The notes under the pieces were generated by a model. The model ran no database searches. It was not told where the DNA came from and saw only the letters and a list, made by a program, of their open reading frames with translations. Positions 2,008 through 16,507 of a stretch of 31,471 nucleotides of DNA are shown here, piece after piece (the first letter of the stretch is position 1; each line of letters opens with the position of its first letter). The stretch is from a virus, in IMG/VR virus record IMGVR_UViG_3300029922_000222, positions 1 to 31,471 of that record. The stretch is one strand, 5' to 3'. Position numbers and translations under genes: made by a program.

Positions 2008-2053
2008 GCGGCGCTCATTTACGCTTTTCAGCGTATATGACGATAAAATGAGA

Positions 2054-2063
2054 TATGCACATA
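2054..2063. repeat. TATGCACATA palindrome-like repeat, copy 1
   Basis: The 10-mer is the core of AGATATG-CA-CATATCT. The same 10-mer recurs at 2188-2197 and 3364-3373. Copies 1 and 3 also share a TTTAT run just downstream. Confidence 0.5.
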
Positions 2064-2184
2064 TCTTTATATGTAGTTTCACGCATATGTCGTCAAAGTT
2101 GCAACTCGCTCTGTCAGATACACGTTTAACGAGTTGTGCGTTTAATCGCGTTCTAAGCTATGCTAGAGCGCGTCATCGATCAAG

Positions 2185-2202
2185 AGCTATGCACATAGCT
2201 CG
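2185..2202. repeat. TATGCACATA palindrome-like repeat, copy 2
   Basis: The inverted repeat GAGCTATG-CA-CATAGCTC has perfect 8-bp arms. It shares its centre with the copies at 2054 and 3364. Confidence 0.5.
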
Positions 2203-2320
2203 CATCTCGTTTCAACGCATGTGCGACGCGCTCTCGCGCTCTATTTTCGACGCTGTGACGTTCGCTCGCGCGCGTTTCGACAAGCGCAAAGCGTCGATCG
2301 ACACGAAGCACCGCAAACGC

Positions 2321-2347
2321 AAAAAGCGCACTCTTTCGAGTGCGCTT
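2321..2347 (-). terminator. Intrinsic terminator, minus strand
   Basis: A perfect 10-bp stem (2324-2333 with 2338-2347) has a four-base loop and is followed, on the minus strand, by five T residues. It lies 30 bases beyond the stop of the small gene at 2377-2550 and closes the minus-strand pair. Confidence 0.75.
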
Positions 2348-2376
2348 GCGTATTGAGACGATGTTTGCGGTGTAAT

Positions 2377-2550
2377 TCAGCTAACGCATTTGAGCACAAT
2401 TTCAATCGTTTCGTTTTCGTCAAGTAGTCGCTCATTCATATCTCGCATTACATAGTCGATTGCGCTTTCGGTGTTTGCAGCGATAATCGAAACGCTATTA
2501 ATTCGCATATGAGCAGCATTATACAGCGTAGCAGTTGCTTGAATTTTCAT
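2377..2550 (-). CDS. Hypothetical small protein (57 aa)
   Basis: On the minus strand an ATG at 2550 opens a 57-residue frame ending in TGA at 2377-2379. The product is acidic, with Met/Ile/Ala-rich stretches, and contains no Gly, Pro or Trp, in keeping with the GG/CC depletion of its DNA. The leader has a purine run (GAAAGAAAG) but no strong ribosome site. It lies 66 bases after the larger minus-strand gene and 30 bases before an intrinsic terminator, so it is probably the second gene of a short operon. The function is unknown. Confidence 0.55.
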   Translation of the reverse strand: MKIQATATLYNAAHMRINSVSIIAANTESAIDYVMRDMNERLLDENETIEIVLKCVS

Positions 2551-2577
2551 TGTCGTGACTTTCTTTCGAGTGAAGTT

Positions 2578-2601
2578 GCTAGCGCGTTTAAACGCGCTAG
2601 C
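2578..2601. repeat. 24-bp perfect palindrome between two minus-strand genes
   Basis: The two 12-base halves GCTAGCGCGTTT and AAACGCGCTAGC are exact reverse complements. It sits 16 bases beyond the stop of the gene at 2617-3246. It has no T-run, so it may be an operator, an RNA processing hairpin or a transcript-stabilising hairpin rather than a terminator. Confidence 0.6.
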
Positions 2602-2616
2602 GTGACGCTGTGACGA

Positions 2617-3246
2617 TCAAAGCGACGCGAGCAATGCTTTGCTAGTCGCGGTGTCTTGATACGTGTAAACGTCTTTACGCGACGCGTTAGTGCTTTCTTT
2701 CAAAACACCGAACTTCACAAGCGCGAAGACGCTGCTAGCATGTTGTGCTTGAACTGTCGAAAGCGCAACGTGTTTTTGATATTTAACAACTAGCTTTTCT
2801 TTCGCAGCGTCTTTGCTGTGTGCGTCAAGCGAACACGCGCTCTTTACTTCGTCGATTGTCATTTCAGCGTTTGCGGTGTGAAACGCTTTCGCGCTAAGTA
2901 GTATAGCGCGCATGTAGTGATGTAGCGAATCAGTCTTAGCGATTGAGCGCGCAAGCATCGTCACGCGCTCAATGCGATATATATCGCAGCGTGCATCTTT
3001 GCGCGTCGCTTCATTGATAAAGTTGAAGTCAATATGTGACTTCATGCAAACACCGAGAATCGTGTCATGCGCGATGTTAGCGCGATACGCTTTCAGCTTC
3101 GCGAGTTTGTTCGCGAGAATATCAGCGTCGCTCACTTGCGTCTTCTCATACGCTGCGCGCGCTTCGAAAGCAGCGTCTACGCTAGCGCGATACGAGTCTA
3201 GCGTGACAACTTGCTTAGTCGTTTCTTTAGCTTTTGCGGTGCTCAT
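2617..3246 (-). CDS. Hypothetical protein of unusual composition (209 aa)
   Basis: This 209-residue protein is rich in Ala, Lys, Ser and Thr and appears mainly helical. It contains no Pro and no Trp, and only two Gly, in FGV and LGV contexts. This follows from the near absence of GG and CC in its DNA, since Gly, Pro and Trp codons need them. No domain or motif is recognised. The ATG at 3246 is preceded by a purine-poor leader without a clear ribosome site. A CTAGTGC half-site lies at 3259-3265, and ACTAGACAAG at 3303-3312 repeats ten bases from the arm of the inverted repeat at 659-698. It may therefore share control with the early plus-strand genes. It could be a recent import. Confidence 0.65.
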   Translation of the reverse strand: MSTAKAKETTKQVVTLDSYRASVDAAFEARAAYEKTQVSDADILANKLAKLKAYRANIAHDTILGVCMKSHIDFNFINEATRKDARCDIYRIERVTMLARSIAKTDSLHHYMRAILLSAKAFHTANAEMTIDEVKSACSLDAHSKDAAKEKLVVKYQKHVALSTVQAQHASSVFALVKFGVLKESTNASRKDVYTYQDTATSKALLASL

Positions 3247-3363
3247 TTTGTTTTCTCTCTAGTGCGTTGCGCTTTCTGTGAAGCGACAATCTGATAATAG
3301 CGACTAGACAAGATAAGTCAATATTTATTTTCATGCGAATGCATGAATTATTCCATATGATGA

Positions 3364-3373
3364 TATGCACATA
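3364..3373. repeat. TATGCACATA palindrome-like repeat, copy 3
   Basis: Same 10-mer as at 2054 and 2188. With copy 1 it brackets the minus-strand gene pair. Confidence 0.45.
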
Positions 3374-3477
3374 TGTTTATGTGACGAATGATGACAGATG
3401 AGACTCTCTGTGACTTATACACGCATGACGCGAAGTCTGACGCGAGACGAGTTGTGCTCGGGAGGGATGCCGCCAAT

Positions 3478-8529: not shown

Positions 8530-11178
8530 TCACGCTGTTTTACGAGAAGAAAATACAGACCAGTCGAAATCTTGTTCGGCGGTGATACCGACATCGAAGC
8601 CAGGCGTGCCCTCGACGATCGCCCGGCGCTGCTTGGCGTGATCGCTCAGGTGCGAATTGAGCCCATCCTCGAAATCGACGATGAACACCACGTTCTCGCC
8701 CTTTTTCTTAGCGCGCATTCCGCGACCGATGCGCTGACGCAGCGCCACTTCGGCCTTGCCACCACCGGCGAGAATGATCATGCCGACCGAGGGCACATCG
8801 ACGCCGACATCGAGAATGGTGGTGCCGATCAGAATGTCGATTTTGCCGACCTTGAGCTTATTCAGCGCTCCCTTGCGCTCGGACTGCTTATCGGCGCCGC
8901 GCAAAAACTGAGTCTTGCCAACGGGATCGAGCAGCTTCTTTAGAGCGACGCCATGCGCGACATGCAGCGCCAGCACCATCACCTGCAAGCCGTGTTCAAC
9001 CGCCTTCTTGGCGAAATCCACGATCTTAGTGTTGCGATCCGGCGCCTCGACAATGCCGAGCTGATAGGCGCGCTGCCAGGGCGAGGTCTTGCGCAGCTTC
9101 GGATGCGGCGCGTATTTGGCGTAAACGAAGCTCGGCTTGGCCAGAATGCCACGATCGATCAGCAGTTTCTCGGAAATGTCGATCAGAATCGGCCCGAACA
9201 CCGCCATCAGTCGCATATTGTTCTCGGCGTCGGCGCGCATGAACGGCGTCGCGGTCAGGGCGACGCGAATATTGGCGTTCTTGCAATGGCGCAAAATCTC
9301 GAAATAGGAGTTGCCACCGGCCTCGTGCGCCTCCTCGCCGATCACCACCTCGACCATTCCGAGCAATTTGATGGTGCGCAGCCGATCACGCTCCTTTTCG
9401 TCGAATGCCTTTTGCGCCAGCATCGCCAGCTCCGGCTCGGTGAATCTGGCGCCGCTCTTGATCATCTTCTCGACCAGCGAGCGGCGCTCGGCGGCGATTG
9501 TCGTCTCCTTTAGTCGGGCGACGAAGGTTTGCACCATGCCGACGTTGATGCCGTGCGAGGGCGCGAACACACCATCACCGATCACACCGCATTTGAAGCC
9601 GACGTTCTCGCAATCGTCCTTCATCTGGTGCATCAGCACGCCGCGAGTCGTCAGAAACAGCGTCATGCGCCGATAGCGCGCGGCTATCATTTTTGCAATT
9701 CTTGTATTATGCGTGACCGTAAAGTCACCTAGCATAAAAAGACTATCCCCATCTATCTCAAAGCCAAAATATTCACCTTCACCGATTGGCTCCACAGTTA
9801 AGCCTACTACAAGATGATCTTTTTTCTGCTGACGCGGGTTGGCCTTACGGCGTTCAAGCCTTACGGGAATTGTTTCCAGATCACCACTAAAGTTAGTTGC
9901 AAAGTAGACTCCAACCACGCCGTTATTGCAGCATGTTTTATTAACTGTCTTTTTGTAAGCGGAGAAGCCGAGAGAGCGAGCTAGAAAGATGCAATCGTCC
10001 AGCAGACGCTCATTTTTCTGAATAAGATATAGTCCTTTTCCGTCATAGTTGCCATCAGTATCCAGAATGCCCGCTAATAGTTGAAGTCGATCTTCGCGTG
10101 ACGCGGTTTTATATATGTGTGGAATGAATTTATCAGCTGCGCACGTCGCGCCAATACCGAGACTTCGTAAAGCTGCTGTAAGCGGATTCTCTTTTCCGCC
10201 GTTTCGACCTCCCGTTAGATAAAAGGTAGACGCCTTGTTATTTAGATCTGACTTTTTACATTCATTTACGCCTAATCCCCAGATGCGCGCTTGATTATGA
10301 ATCTCCATTTTAATTTCATTATCAGCAGTCGTGACGCTTACCGATCCATTAACCGAACCGTCGCCCAAAATTACACCAAGAAAATATGGATCAACTGGTA
10401 AATGAGCGCCTACCGGAAAATCAACTCCGGTGCGCCAACCCTTATGAATGTGTCGAAATGTATTTGTTTCGGCGAGATATTTCTCCACATTGATATTGAC
10501 GATCTCGCCTTTCGGGTATTTCTCGCCATCTCTATTGCGACCGCGATAACCTCGACTGGTTTTTTTTAAGCTCAGAATATGAGCATCATTGACGATATAG
10601 GAGTCGCCCTTCGTTGGAGTGACCCTATAAAGCGGATCGCGACCGGCACAGACGGAGAGAACGAAGCGCGGCTTACTATCCGGTCCCATCAGCAGATCGC
10701 CAACGACTACATTCTGCACCATCTTGATAGTGCCATTGTGCATTAGAATTGGCGTATCGCGCCCAAGACATTTACCACCGCCGGTCGCGACCCGTAGAAT
10801 GCCACATTGATGCCGTTCGACCTGGTGCAGCGATTCAGGCTGAAAATCGTAGCGCGGGTCGTCATTGCCATATTCATCGACCTTGGGATCGACCGGACCT
10901 AGCGGCGCGATCGCCTTGGCGCGAATCAGCTGAACTTTATAACCCTTGGCGACCAATTTATCGTGAACGATCGCCACAAAGCCGGCTGGAAAGGTCGAGG
11001 TGCGCCGCGAAAAGAAGCTGGAGCGCCCATCCCACTTGCCGTGACCGAAGCTGCCGCTGAATTCGGCGCCTTCTACGAAATACGACAAACTTTCTGCGAC
11101 CAGATCCTTCACTTCCTTATCATCACAAAAAATTTTCGCCGTTATCGCATTATGCGCGAGCTTTATAGGTTCCAGCAT
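8530..11178 (-). CDS. SF2 DNA helicase containing an intein
   Basis: The 882-residue precursor is a superfamily 2 helicase of the UvsW/type III restriction subunit style. It has a P-loop ATGGGK-T split by an intein at residues 137-491, a DEAH-like box read as GEEAHEA (614-620), motif III TAT (642-644) and motif VI QRIGRGMR (815-822). After splicing the helicase would be 527 residues long and could act in replication, recombination or fork rescue. It reads on the minus strand, divergent from the ParB-like gene, with an extended dyad (11208-11235) between the two starts. The ATG at 11178 has only a weak purine-rich leader. The intein DNA is visibly richer in AT than both exteins, which suggests separate acquisition. 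Confidence 0.85.
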   Translation of the reverse strand: MLEPIKLAHNAITAKIFCDDKEVKDLVAESLSYFVEGAEFSGSFGHGKWDGRSSFFSRRTSTFPAGFVAIVHDKLVAKGYKVQLIRAKAIAPLGPVDPKVDEYGNDDPRYDFQPESLHQVERHQCGILRVATGGGKCLGRDTPILMHNGTIKMVQNVVVGDLLMGPDSKPRFVLSVCAGRDPLYRVTPTKGDSYIVNDAHILSLKKTSRGYRGRNRDGEKYPKGEIVNINVEKYLAETNTFRHIHKGWRTGVDFPVGAHLPVDPYFLGVILGDGSVNGSVSVTTADNEIKMEIHNQARIWGLGVNECKKSDLNNKASTFYLTGGRNGGKENPLTAALRSLGIGATCAADKFIPHIYKTASREDRLQLLAGILDTDGNYDGKGLYLIQKNERLLDDCIFLARSLGFSAYKKTVNKTCCNNGVVGVYFATNFSGDLETIPVRLERRKANPRQQKKDHLVVGLTVEPIGEGEYFGFEIDGDSLFMLGDFTVTHNTRIAKMIAARYRRMTLFLTTRGVLMHQMKDDCENVGFKCGVIGDGVFAPSHGINVGMVQTFVARLKETTIAAERRSLVEKMIKSGARFTEPELAMLAQKAFDEKERDRLRTIKLLGMVEVVIGEEAHEAGGNSYFEILRHCKNANIRVALTATPFMRADAENNMRLMAVFGPILIDISEKLLIDRGILAKPSFVYAKYAPHPKLRKTSPWQRAYQLGIVEAPDRNTKIVDFAKKAVEHGLQVMVLALHVAHGVALKKLLDPVGKTQFLRGADKQSERKGALNKLKVGKIDILIGTTILDVGVDVPSVGMIILAGGGKAEVALRQRIGRGMRAKKKGENVVFIVDFEDGLNSHLSDHAKQRRAIVEGTPGFDVGITAEQDFDWSVFSSRKTA
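9706..10770 (-). mobile_element. Intein with LAGLIDADG homing endonuclease (355 aa)
   Basis: The intein runs from Cys137 (CLGRDTPI, block A) to His490-Asn491, followed by Thr492 as the +1 nucleophile. Block B is GDSYIVNDAH. The endonuclease blocks are FLGVILGDGS (266-275) and LLAGILDTDG (367-376), both with the acidic residues intact. Block F is EYFGFEIDGDSLFMLGDFTV. Insertion exactly between Lys and Thr of the Walker A motif means that the helicase cannot bind ATP until splicing. All splice-site residues are present, so it should be active. Confidence 0.92.
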
Positions 11179-11207
11179 CGAATTTTCCGCTTGCCTTATG
11201 TGGTCCG

Positions 11208-11235
11208 TGTGGTAAGTCAGTAGTTACTTACCACA
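11208..11235. promoter_or_regulatory. Extended dyad between divergent genes (copy G)
   Basis: The arms TGTGGTAAGT and ACTTACCACA are perfect 10-bp complements around 8 bases. The 20-bp core is 11212-11231. It lies between the helicase start (11178, minus) and the ParB-like start (11245, plus), so one protein could control both directions. Confidence 0.75.
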
Positions 11236-11244
11236 GGTTGATAA

Positions 11245-11928
11245 ATGTCCAAAACAAAAGTGTTCGAAGTTCATCCCGATCTGCTCCGTTCCAACGATTG
11301 GAACGTCAACTTCATGACCGCGCCGAATGAAGCGAAACTCGCCGCGTCGATTGATCGTTTTGACGGTTTATTCAAGCCAATTCTAGTTCGCGAAGTCGCC
11401 GGCGTCGAGGGTTACGAGATTCTTGGCGGTGAGCATCGCTGGATCGTCGCCAAGAGTAAGAAGCTCGCCCTGGTGCCGATTTGGAACCTTGGTGAGATCG
11501 ACGACAAGAAGGCTAAGGAAATTTCGCTGGCCGACAACGCCCGTTACGGCGCCGACGATACGCTGGCGCTCGGCGAGTTGTTGAAGGAGCTGACGGTCGA
11601 TGGCGACGATCTGCAAGATTACCTTCCCTATTCCGATGTCGATCTTCACGCGATCTTTTCGTCAGATATAGCGCTGGATGAGTTGTCGCTCGATGAAATC
11701 GACGACAAGCCGAAAGAAACCGTCGAGGAGCCCGTCACGCGCCCCGTTAAGACGCATACCATCATGCGCTTCAATATCGCCAACGAAGACGCCGAGCGTC
11801 TCACCGCCGCCCTCGCGAAAATCCAAAAATTCTACGGTTACTCCAGCGCCGACCAGATGACCAACGCCGGCGACGCGCTGATGCAAATGGTCATCGATGC
11901 GATCGTCGCCTCCGAGGATGAATCGTGA
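11245..11928 (+). CDS. ParB/Srx-like protein 1
   Basis: The 227-residue protein has an N-terminal ParB/sulfiredoxin-like domain (about 5-120). It shows the sequence PILVRE, then GYEILGGEHRW (57-66, the box corresponding to ParB GxxR), then LADNARYG. This family includes CTP-dependent DNA clamps and DNA-acting nucleases or accessory factors. The C-terminal half is acidic and then helical, without a recognised DNA-binding domain. The start has a CAGG ribosome site, and the extended dyad G is 10 bases upstream. It is the first of eight overlapping genes to 15646. Next to an ABC-type ATPase and a GNAT enzyme, an accessory role in DNA modification is possible. Confidence 0.75.
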   Translation: MSKTKVFEVHPDLLRSNDWNVNFMTAPNEAKLAASIDRFDGLFKPILVREVAGVEGYEILGGEHRWIVAKSKKLALVPIWNLGEIDDKKAKEISLADNARYGADDTLALGELLKELTVDGDDLQDYLPYSDVDLHAIFSSDIALDELSLDEIDDKPKETVEEPVTRPVKTHTIMRFNIANEDAERLTAALAKIQKFYGYSSADQMTNAGDALMQMVIDAIVASEDES

Positions 11929-14325: not shown

Positions 14326-15302
14326 CCATCGCAGAGAAGCTCGCTGAGCACGACCAAAGCGCGCGAGCTACATCGTGTCGTCTCGATGCGCTTCGCGAGC
14401 CCAGCACTACTCTCTCGCTGTTTAACGCTGCGCCGGCGTCTGAGTTCTACATCAAGCGCAACGCTACGCCGAAACCGGTGTTCTCGCTGCTCGACGAAAT
14501 GTGGGTGGAGCGCGGCGATCGCTCGGATTGGGATTTGCTGCACGATCTTCACTACAAGGCGGAAAAGCTGCCGATCGGCCCGAAATACTGGAAACTGACG
14601 CTCGGCGGCGAGACCATCGGCGTGCTGGTGTCGGGCGTGCCGAAGGGCATGGTTAAGGAGCGCCATATCGTCATGATGAATCTTCGGCCCGGCCCCGGCG
14701 ACACCAAGTTCACCAACACCCAGCGCTACGTATGGATCAACGGTAATATTCGTGTCGTTTCGCGGTTCGTGCTCGACACGATGTATCGCGGCGTCGGCGC
14801 AGGCTATCGCGCGATGAATCTCGCCAGTCGAATGGAGGGCAAGGCGATCATGGAAATTCAGTCGTCGATGTCGAAGTTCAATATGTTCGGCCAGAAAGCT
14901 GGCTTTCGCTTCGTGACGCCGCTCAACGCTAATATGTTCGCTAAGGGCATGAGATTTTTTCGCCAGCACTTCGAGAATAATCCGCAAGACTCCGAGGCGC
15001 TGATGCTGGAGCTGGAGAGCAAGCCGGAGATCGAGCGGTATCGACTCACCGAGGCGCTGCGAACCTTCTATATGCGATTTTCGTCGCTGGAGAACACCGG
15101 CGCGATGAAATCGTCAGGTAGGGGCGTCAAGCGCGTCGCCGCGATGGATCACCGGGCGTTGATCAAGGCGATCCAACAGATGTGTCTGTCGTCGCCGCTT
15201 TACGGCATTTATAAGAACCCGGATTGCGGCCGCGTTCTGCCCGAGCGCTTGCCATTGTCGGCGTTCGATCGCCAGGGCTTCAATCAACCGCTGGTGTTTT
15301 GA
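14322..15302 (+). CDS. Mom/COG2401-like GNAT acyltransferase
   Basis: In the 326-residue protein, residues about 70-200 form a GNAT fold. It has LHYKAEKLP (76-84), strand GETIGVLVSG, then VSRFVLDTMYRGVGAG (146-161, the acyl-CoA loop RGxGxG) and SSMSKFNMFGQKAGF (181-195). The last motif corresponds to the Ala/Met-x-x-(Y/F)-N-P-F-F-x-K-A-G-M segment of COG2401 and recalls Mu Mom, a GNAT-fold enzyme that modifies adenine in DNA. The C-terminal third is unassigned. I infer modification of phage DNA with help from the ATPase and ParB-like proteins. Protein or RNA acylation is an alternative. It is coupled by ATGA upstream and by TGATG downstream. Confidence 0.7.
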   Translation: MTIAEKLAEHDQSARATSCRLDALREPSTTLSLFNAAPASEFYIKRNATPKPVFSLLDEMWVERGDRSDWDLLHDLHYKAEKLPIGPKYWKLTLGGETIGVLVSGVPKGMVKERHIVMMNLRPGPGDTKFTNTQRYVWINGNIRVVSRFVLDTMYRGVGAGYRAMNLASRMEGKAIMEIQSSMSKFNMFGQKAGFRFVTPLNANMFAKGMRFFRQHFENNPQDSEALMLELESKPEIERYRLTEALRTFYMRFSSLENTGAMKSSGRGVKRVAAMDHRALIKAIQQMCLSSPLYGIYKNPDCGRVLPERLPLSAFDRQGFNQPLVF

Positions 15303-15813: not shown

Positions 15814-16507
15814 GAGCAAGGTTGAGGACGATCTCGAAGCTGAACTGGCCGAACTCGCCGGTGTAGTCGAGGCGATTGACGAGGAAGAAGATAAAGACGA
15901 GGCGCTGGAGCCGGCGACGCCGAGCACCGTTCGTCTATCCGCCGCGGATTGGGAGAAGCTCGTCGCGGAATATGAAAGCAGCCTGACCATCTCGGTGATC
16001 GACCTGGCGGTGAAATGGGGCGTTTCGCGCACCGCGATCCAGATGCACTTCAAGCGCCTCAAGGACAAGGGCTACAGCGTCGCGCGCGGCAGCAAGGCCG
16101 TCGGCGCCTCCAAGCCAACGGCTGGACCGGCGGCGGAACCGACCTGGGAAGACAAGCGCCGCGCGCGCATCGAGATCGTGCGCGAGGACAGCTACAAGAC
16201 AACGCGCGCGCTGCGCCAGCTTAATATCGGCCTGGTGGTCGAGGCGAAGAGAGCCGGCGCCTCGTTCGCGACGATCAAGGAGCAGCTGCGGGCGCTGCGC
16301 ATCGCCATGGCGACGGAGATCGAGGGCAGCAATCACGACCTCATGAACCTGGAGGCCGCGAAGAACTCCGATCCCAATGAATTACCGGAAATTCGCATCA
16401 TCAATCTGACCGATGAGGACATCAAGGAGCTGCGCGCCGGCGACGAGGACGACAGTCCGGAAATGCCCGCGCTCGAACTCGAAGAAGAAGTGGTCGTGAT
16501 TGAATAA
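15812..16507 (+). CDS. terS: Terminase small subunit
   Basis: The 231-residue protein has an acidic N-terminus (1-35) and a helix-turn-helix segment (about 48-90, WEKLVAEYESSLTIS then LAVKWGVSRTAIQMHFKRL). A basic/helical middle follows, then a very acidic C-terminus that may contact TerL. The assignment rests on the HTH and on the position one base before terL in the packaging module. TerS recognises the packaging site on phage DNA, and a strong inverted repeat lies directly upstream. The start codon overlaps dyad H and has no clear ribosome site. Confidence 0.75.
   Translation: MSKVEDDLEAELAELAGVVEAIDEEEDKDEALEPATPSTVRLSAADWEKLVAEYESSLTISVIDLAVKWGVSRTAIQMHFKRLKDKGYSVARGSKAVGASKPTAGPAAEPTWEDKRRARIEIVREDSYKTTRALRQLNIGLVVEAKRAGASFATIKEQLRALRIAMATEIEGSNHDLMNLEAAKNSDPNELPEIRIINLTDEDIKELRAGDEDDSPEMPALELEEEVVVIE

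Follow-up and report, generated by a model that had tools for sequence, protein, structure and literature searches.

The virus DNA considered here, a fragment of 31,471 nucleotides (IMG/VR record IMGVR_UViG_3300029922_000222; referred to below as the window), contains a block of about 1.45 kb from which the dinucleotides GG and CC are almost absent. The locus raises the question of why a virus would keep one stretch of its genome, genes included, clear of a single dinucleotide, and what could read so short a word. We know of no other genome in which a complete gene unit, its noncoding DNA included, is stripped of one dinucleotide on both strands to the point where its proteins lose three amino acids, with this state upheld across a virus family. 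Members of this family have Rhizobium-like bacteria as hosts and live as plasmids, and the block, here called the island, occupies what is probably one genome end, with a gene for a small, predicted DNA-binding protein.

GG and CC depletion in the window

The island and the features inside it are as follows.

2012 to 3459, no strand: GG/CC-free island, 1448 bp with 9 GG/CC (counts, shuffles, and desert scan)
2617 to 3246, minus strand: gene I, an open reading frame (ORF) of 209 amino acids (aa) with a predicted N-terminal helical domain and C-terminal winged helix; the core island gene of the family
2377 to 2550, minus strand: 57-aa ORF, free of Gly, Pro, and Trp, on the downstream side of I; it may be a second gene of the unit
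2311 to 3239, no strand: eight tolerated CGGTG/CACCG sites, with GG or CC at 2311, 2369, 2470, 2650, 2708, 2875, 3053, and 3238

An initial sequence-only reading had described few GG or CC amid abundant CG and GC. Exact counting bears this out, with five GG and four CC against 153 CG and 150 GC, and the rough estimate of about 150 expected GG/CC was close to the 156.5 ± 10.3 obtained from 2000 mononucleotide shuffles of the island, the lowest of which still held 125. With the 209-aa protein held fixed and codons drawn according to phage usage, its gene is expected to contain 65.2 ± 6.1 GG/CC (5000 draws; lowest, 44), and shuffling of its own synonymous codons gives 25.6 ± 3.2; the gene has 5. 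Noncoding DNA is as depleted as coding DNA (2 observed against 42 ± 5 expected at 2012 to 2376, and 1 against 16.7 ± 3.3 at 3247 to 3459), which, together with the far higher codon-level expectation, places the constraint on DNA rather than on protein, as had been proposed. The 209-aa protein has two Gly and no Pro or Trp, and all three are missing from the 57-aa ORF, also as first read; these residues make up 12.6% of the ten other window ORFs. The edges are indeed sharp, as the nearest outside GG lie at 2010 on the left and 3460 on the right. In a maximum-score desert scan of the window, GG/CC reached 138 and every other dinucleotide 11.2 or less. Eight of the nine exceptions are CGGTG/CACCG.

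AlphaFold2 predicts the I protein of the window with a mean pLDDT of 95.3 as a helical domain followed by the C-terminal winged helix. Its matches in the PDB, to winged-helix regulators, were weak and yielded no function, and no Pfam, PHROG, or PADLOC family matched it, so that these collections link it to no known anti-CRISPR or anti-defense family. A homologue of the 57-aa ORF was sought and none was found; other islands have unrelated small ORFs in this place. Candidate signals within the island, and the tract beside it, are listed here.

3294 to 3321, minus strand: sigma70-like promoter TTGACT-16-TATTAT upstream of I, predicted by a sequence scan
2321 to 2346, minus strand: hairpin AGCGCACTC/GAGTGCGCT followed by a minus-strand T run, read as the likely intrinsic terminator of the I unit
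2578 to 2601, no strand: perfect palindrome of 24 bp, GCTAGCGCGTTTAAACGCGCTAGC, in the gap that separates the ORFs, found by self match
1590 to 2011, no strand: noncoding tract dense in GG/CC, with CCATGG copies, adjoining the island; 13 CCATGG occur within 600 bp from 1641

A family of island-bearing phage-plasmids

The window phage is a relative of the RHEph10/pLM21S1-type phage-plasmids: its ParA is 51 to 62% identical to those of members, and the gene arrangement (island, parA, helicase, parB-like genes, and terminase) is common to both. The window is a 31-kb virus fragment, and its relatives are alphaproteobacterial phage-plasmids of ~115 kb. A tblastn search with the 209-aa protein retrieved RHEph10-type Rhizobium phages and ~116-kb phage-plasmids of Methylobacterium, Pararhizobium, and Shinella; further loci, mostly from IMG/VR, were fetched by alignment of the neighboring helicase, and single-protein pattern scans retrieved zero relatives. 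The window phage differs from this group in its own exempt word, CGGTG, and in an intein-like insert in its helicase. The helicase ORF (8530 to 11178, minus strand) encodes 882 aa, ~320 aa more than in relatives, and the extra part, which opens with CLGRDTPILMHNG and closes with FTVTHN/T, resembles an intein with an endonuclease-type domain.

Rather than disappearing among relatives, the depletion is present in related phages too. The same kind of island surrounds an I homologue in at least 40 distinct records, with a length of 0.7 to 2.4 kb and mostly 0 to 9 GG/CC, and GG/CC-free blocks adjoin parA in related loci. Examples are the islands of V1VFA-S (1279 bp, 0 GG/CC), Sinorhizobium pLM21S1 (1334 bp, 0 GG/CC), and Methylobacterium AMS5 pAMS5a (1682 bp, 1 GG/CC). 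The complete genomes of AMS5, LM21, V1VFA-S, RHEph10, and B1VFA each contain exactly one island, and a scan of M. oryzae p2 and the virus L090v detected none. Desert scores for GG/CC in island-bearing genomes are 119 to 279, against at most ~20 for the best other dinucleotide, and G+C content is reduced in islands. Import from a GG-avoiding genome, a cause that the sequence-only reading had offered, does not fit an island that lies in the same place family-wide, is unique in each complete island-bearing genome, has diverged vertically, and has been purged in place. Neither chance nor import accounts for the depletion in the window; the other possibilities raised at the outset, a local function or selection against GG, were correctly identified as those at issue.

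Each island holds one I (~186 to 221 aa), usually without Gly, Pro, and Trp, and the small ORFs beside it differ by lineage. Most genomes also have N, a GG-normal paralogue located 2 to 4 kb from the island; both proteins have predicted winged-helix domains. Within the RHEph10 group, I is 84 to 87% identical and N 71 to 82%. The plus-strand coding sequence annotated in the RHEph10 island (gp148 of JX483881; 10728 to 11408 of locus L006) is probably wrong, as the homologous I gene lies on the minus strand at 10818 to 11432. GG avoidance and the I/N paralogues are not mentioned in the accessible parts of the papers on the RHEph10/pLM21S1 group, described there as plasmid-like prophages, and on B1VFA/V1VFA-S (PMC4447125, PMC5537653, and PMC12509600), and a literature search on GG avoidance by phages returned nothing relevant.

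The island edge, a probable virion genome end

One edge of the island carries a conserved element.

3428 to 3473, minus strand: conserved edge element of ~45 bp, the predicted terminus of the virion genome, with GGCATCCC at 3471 to 3464 and 30 bp from ATCCC to AGACTTCG (from 3438 down)

The window copy reads GGCATCCCTCCCGAGCACAACTCGTCTCGCGTCAGACTTCGCG (3471 to 3429, minus strand), and the family consensus is AGAAGGCATCCC(C)ATCA-N-TCTAAGACTTCG, with a spacing of 29 to 30 bp between ATCCC and AGACTTC across lineages. The element sits at the parA-proximal edge of the island irrespective of the orientation of I; its outer half holds the last GG, and the island begins at its inner half. RHEph10-type members have the outer-half variant GGGCATCAT, and a recognizable element is missing in a few lineages (e.g., L014 and L038). 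The exact edge 12-mer is present as a single copy in each genome that has it. In L044, the edge word is found as TCTAGGACTTCG, in inverted orientation, near both island ends (15082 to 15093 and 16068 to 16079).

Terminal repeats of 3605 and 3939 bp are given for B1VFA and V1VFA-S, respectively, in the accessible text of their description, which states lengths without positions (PMC12509600). The sole homologous windows of the two genomes that fit both lengths run, in B1VFA, from 39639–39809 to 43243–43413, and the edge 12-mer of B1VFA, at 43245 to 43256, falls within the fitted end range. Given this unique fit at the 12-mer, the virion genome most likely has an end at the edge, and its terminal repeat would hold both I and N. 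We consider it probable that the island edge is a terminus of the linear virion genome, at a position derived from the lengths reported for two relatives and accurate to 171 bp, and it is strongly indicated that this terminus lies inside a direct terminal repeat (DTR) of ~3.6 to 3.9 kb that also holds N. Many loci (e.g., L010, L011, and L013) have conserved GCGTGTGT and ATAGAGAG words 600 to 800 bp upstream of N, near where the terminal repeat would be expected to end on its other side.

In 40 of 44 records, I lies wholly within the island, and the remaining 4 are start-codon miscalls. Whichever way I is oriented, it is flanked inside the island by at least 75 bp on its start side and at least 45 bp after its stop. 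Because I is always enclosed with such margins, the island is best described as reaching from the probable genome end to where the I transcription unit finishes and not over any fixed distance.

Maintenance, loss, and exempt contexts

Between the V1VFA-S and LM21 islands there are 212 substitutions, and none of the substituted sites lies in a GG or CC, compared with 43.8 ± 4.8 expected by random placement. In relatives without an island, substitutions create GG at a near-random rate: 36 against 46 expected in L090, 70 against 84 in M. oryzae (L003), and 62 against 76 in L031. Islands are therefore actively cleared of GG, and the return of GG in island-less relatives shows that I tolerates it. 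The GG depletion, its conservation, and its active maintenance are near certain. From the edge element across the whole I unit, DNA is kept free of GG/CC family-wide, save for lineage-specific exempt contexts.

These contexts are evident in the islands richer in exceptions, where exceptions are nonrandom, lineage specific, and strand symmetric. The exempt word is GGTG in the window, L053, and L059 and mainly so in L039; it is CGGT in L079, L080, L083, L094, and L096; and GGT in general is exempt in L075, L077, L100, and L102. In L044, exceptions are mostly GGA, on both strands. Exempt words that vary by lineage and hold for both strands argue for a factor that reads double-stranded DNA through a GG core in a variable context. 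A cause at the level of amino acids (tRNA-Gly, -Pro, or -Trp) is ruled out, as GG is missing out of frame and in noncoding DNA, and a cause at the level of RNA is unlikely given that GG and CC are equally missing and exempt words occur on either strand. General avoidance of restriction sites is ruled out by the lack of a comparable desert for other dinucleotides; the most depleted non-GG trinucleotides, GTA and TAA, merely follow TA. Restriction-site avoidance in phages is alike in that short target words are lost under selection, but it is usually genome-wide and directed at sites of 4 to 6 bases, whereas here a dinucleotide is lost from 0.7 to 2.4 kb, with proteins that do without Gly, Pro, and Trp. 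Recognition of a PAM or restriction type, which the sequence-only reading had named, is a possible cause of the absence of GG.

A first-entering segment as a tentative explanation

A GG-free segment at a probable genome end suggests that first-entering DNA must escape something that recognizes GG, and phage T5 offers a comparison. The T5 record AY543070 has a 10.2-kb left terminal repeat with the pre-early genes dmp, A1, and A2; in T5, this repeat is the part of the genome that goes in first. In T5-like phages, EcoRI sites are missing from the pre-early region of a tested phage, accompanying EcoRI insensitivity there, and DNA-targeting defenses have been reported to hit the pre-early region primarily (PMC13250531). 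The island is like the first-step-transfer (FST) segment of T5 in its terminal-repeat position, inferred here, in its small genes that include one for a DNA-binding protein (A2 in T5; I, by prediction, here), and in the short words that are missing (EcoRI target sites in the T5-like phage; GG/CC, as putative target sites, here); it is unlike that segment in being far shorter and in lacking a dinucleotide instead of a restriction site. I shows no similarity to A2 and is not its homologue, and the first 14 kb of T5 contain no dinucleotide desert.

By analogy, we tentatively favor, as plausible rather than probable, the reading that the island is a T5-like pre-early, first-entering segment lacking sites for a GG-dependent, DNA-directed agent. 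Entering DNA would meet an agent for which GG on double-stranded DNA, in a context that differs somewhat between lineages, would suffice; such an agent could be a nuclease, a GG-dependent binding or stop factor, or a targeting complex whose PAM is GG. The site-free first segment would allow I, and any small cotranscribed genes, to be made, and I may then let the remaining, GG-rich genome enter or survive. A host-encoded agent would be more likely than a phage-encoded one, because no gene of the phages distinguishes genomes with an island from those lacking one, and similar terminases occur with and without it. In the gene-content comparison, no credible gene was confined to genomes with an island: M. 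oryzae lacks the rIIA/rIIB-like genes, but L090v has them, and other candidates were shadow ORFs.

Against the first-entry reading, N lies inside the inferred DTR, yet its GG content is normal, and it would be unusual for a defense system to have a target as small as a dinucleotide. The island requirement is also not universal, since some relatives, L090 among them, have lost the island and kept the edge element and I. More doubtful is a broader form of the same reading, in which alphaproteobacteria would have a widespread, undescribed barrier against entering DNA that reads little beyond duplex GG, and the virus family would answer it with a target-free, first-entering end encoding a pre-early counter-protein, I, composed of 17 amino acids. 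The island opens to direct testing the question of what senses the first kilobase of DNA to enter: exempt words that differ by lineage would report on the specificity of the sensor, and the island-less relatives are natural controls for finding it.

Alternative explanations

It is unlikely, if worth weighing, that the island evades a silencer, that is, that a phage or host protein (e.g., N or a nucleoid protein) silences GG-containing DNA and the site-free island keeps I expressed in the plasmid state. This would agree with the constant presence of I and its upstream region within the island, with the predicted winged-helix domains of the paralogues N and I, and with a GG density beside the island that exceeds the locus average. 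However, the DNA between edge and I, the DNA past the likely terminator, and the lineage-specific small ORFs are equally GG-free, and the GG-normal I of M. oryzae is 61% identical to the GG-free I of AMS5, with N in both. We know of no silencer that reads GG.

The position of the island beside the inferred terminus, and an element of fixed spacing that resembles a protein-binding site, could also point to packaging, with a nuclease that cuts near GG-type sites and an island that limits cutting to the terminus element. We regard this as improbable: in L090, GG is back although the element is kept and the terminase shares 92% identity with that of V1VFA-S; the terminases of AMS5, with an island, and M. 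oryzae, without one, are 80% identical; and island length follows where I ends rather than a constant distance.

CRISPR is sparse in Rhizobiales, one GG core across many alphaproteobacterial genera would require a common PAM, and I has no Pfam, PHROG, or PADLOC match. These points weigh against the island as DNA that escapes CRISPR systems with GG/CC-type PAMs, which would cut free or first-entering ends and take spacers from them, with I as an anti-CRISPR or associated protein. This, too, has a low probability in our judgment, even though PAM recognition is the best-known recognition that is dinucleotide level, duplex, and lineage variable. In its favor, too, NGG is the PAM of Streptococcus pyogenes Cas9, and spacers are taken preferentially from free DNA ends (PMC10415147).

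A pre-early phage nuclease that degrades host DNA at GG while the island alone is inside the cell would spare the island. T5 does break down host DNA in its FST phase, according to the notes of its record, but the elements studied here persist as plasmids, no candidate nuclease was found, and the gene-content comparison gave no credible island-restricted gene; self-sparing is thus very improbable.

Relaxed CC-specific m5C methyltransferases, recognizing CC, are described for alphaproteobacterial phages in the accessible part of one paper (PMC5537653). The CC dinucleotide is what they share with the island, but methylation would not be confined to one segment. A C5-cytosine methyltransferase (PF00145) was detected in none of 19 virus, phage, or plasmid records, and both of the 2 matches were in whole host genomes; a phage C5 methyltransferase was therefore rejected as the cause. 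Mutational erosion, in which a local cytosine deaminase or CC methylation strips CC without selection, has the least to recommend it: avoided BCC and tolerated ACC in several lineages recall a context-dependent cytosine modifier, and G+C is lower in islands, but exempt contexts vary by lineage, I proteins of the RHEph10 group are no less conserved than N, the methyltransferase is missing from the 19 virus, phage, or plasmid records, and edges that take in a whole transcription unit are not predicted.

Repeated words near I and N

Many members have CCATGG clusters (up to 13 in 600 bp) in the noncoding DNA close to I or N (e.g., L011, 23135 to 24110; L066, from 16475; and L031, from 11991). They were rejected as a general counterpart of the island because, frequent as they are near I and N, they are missing from several island-bearing genomes; CCATGG is absent from 32 to 40 kb of V1VFA-S, LM21, and pRlX6, where 10 to 13 copies are expected. 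The noncoding DNA just outside the island in L011, L012, L014, L018, L025, L038, and L044 contains a repeated word like CCGTTCCTAA or CCGGTTCCTAAAATC. Upstream of N in L004 (6640 to 6850), there are several ATGTTGACAG-like direct and inverted repeats, which are iteron-like.
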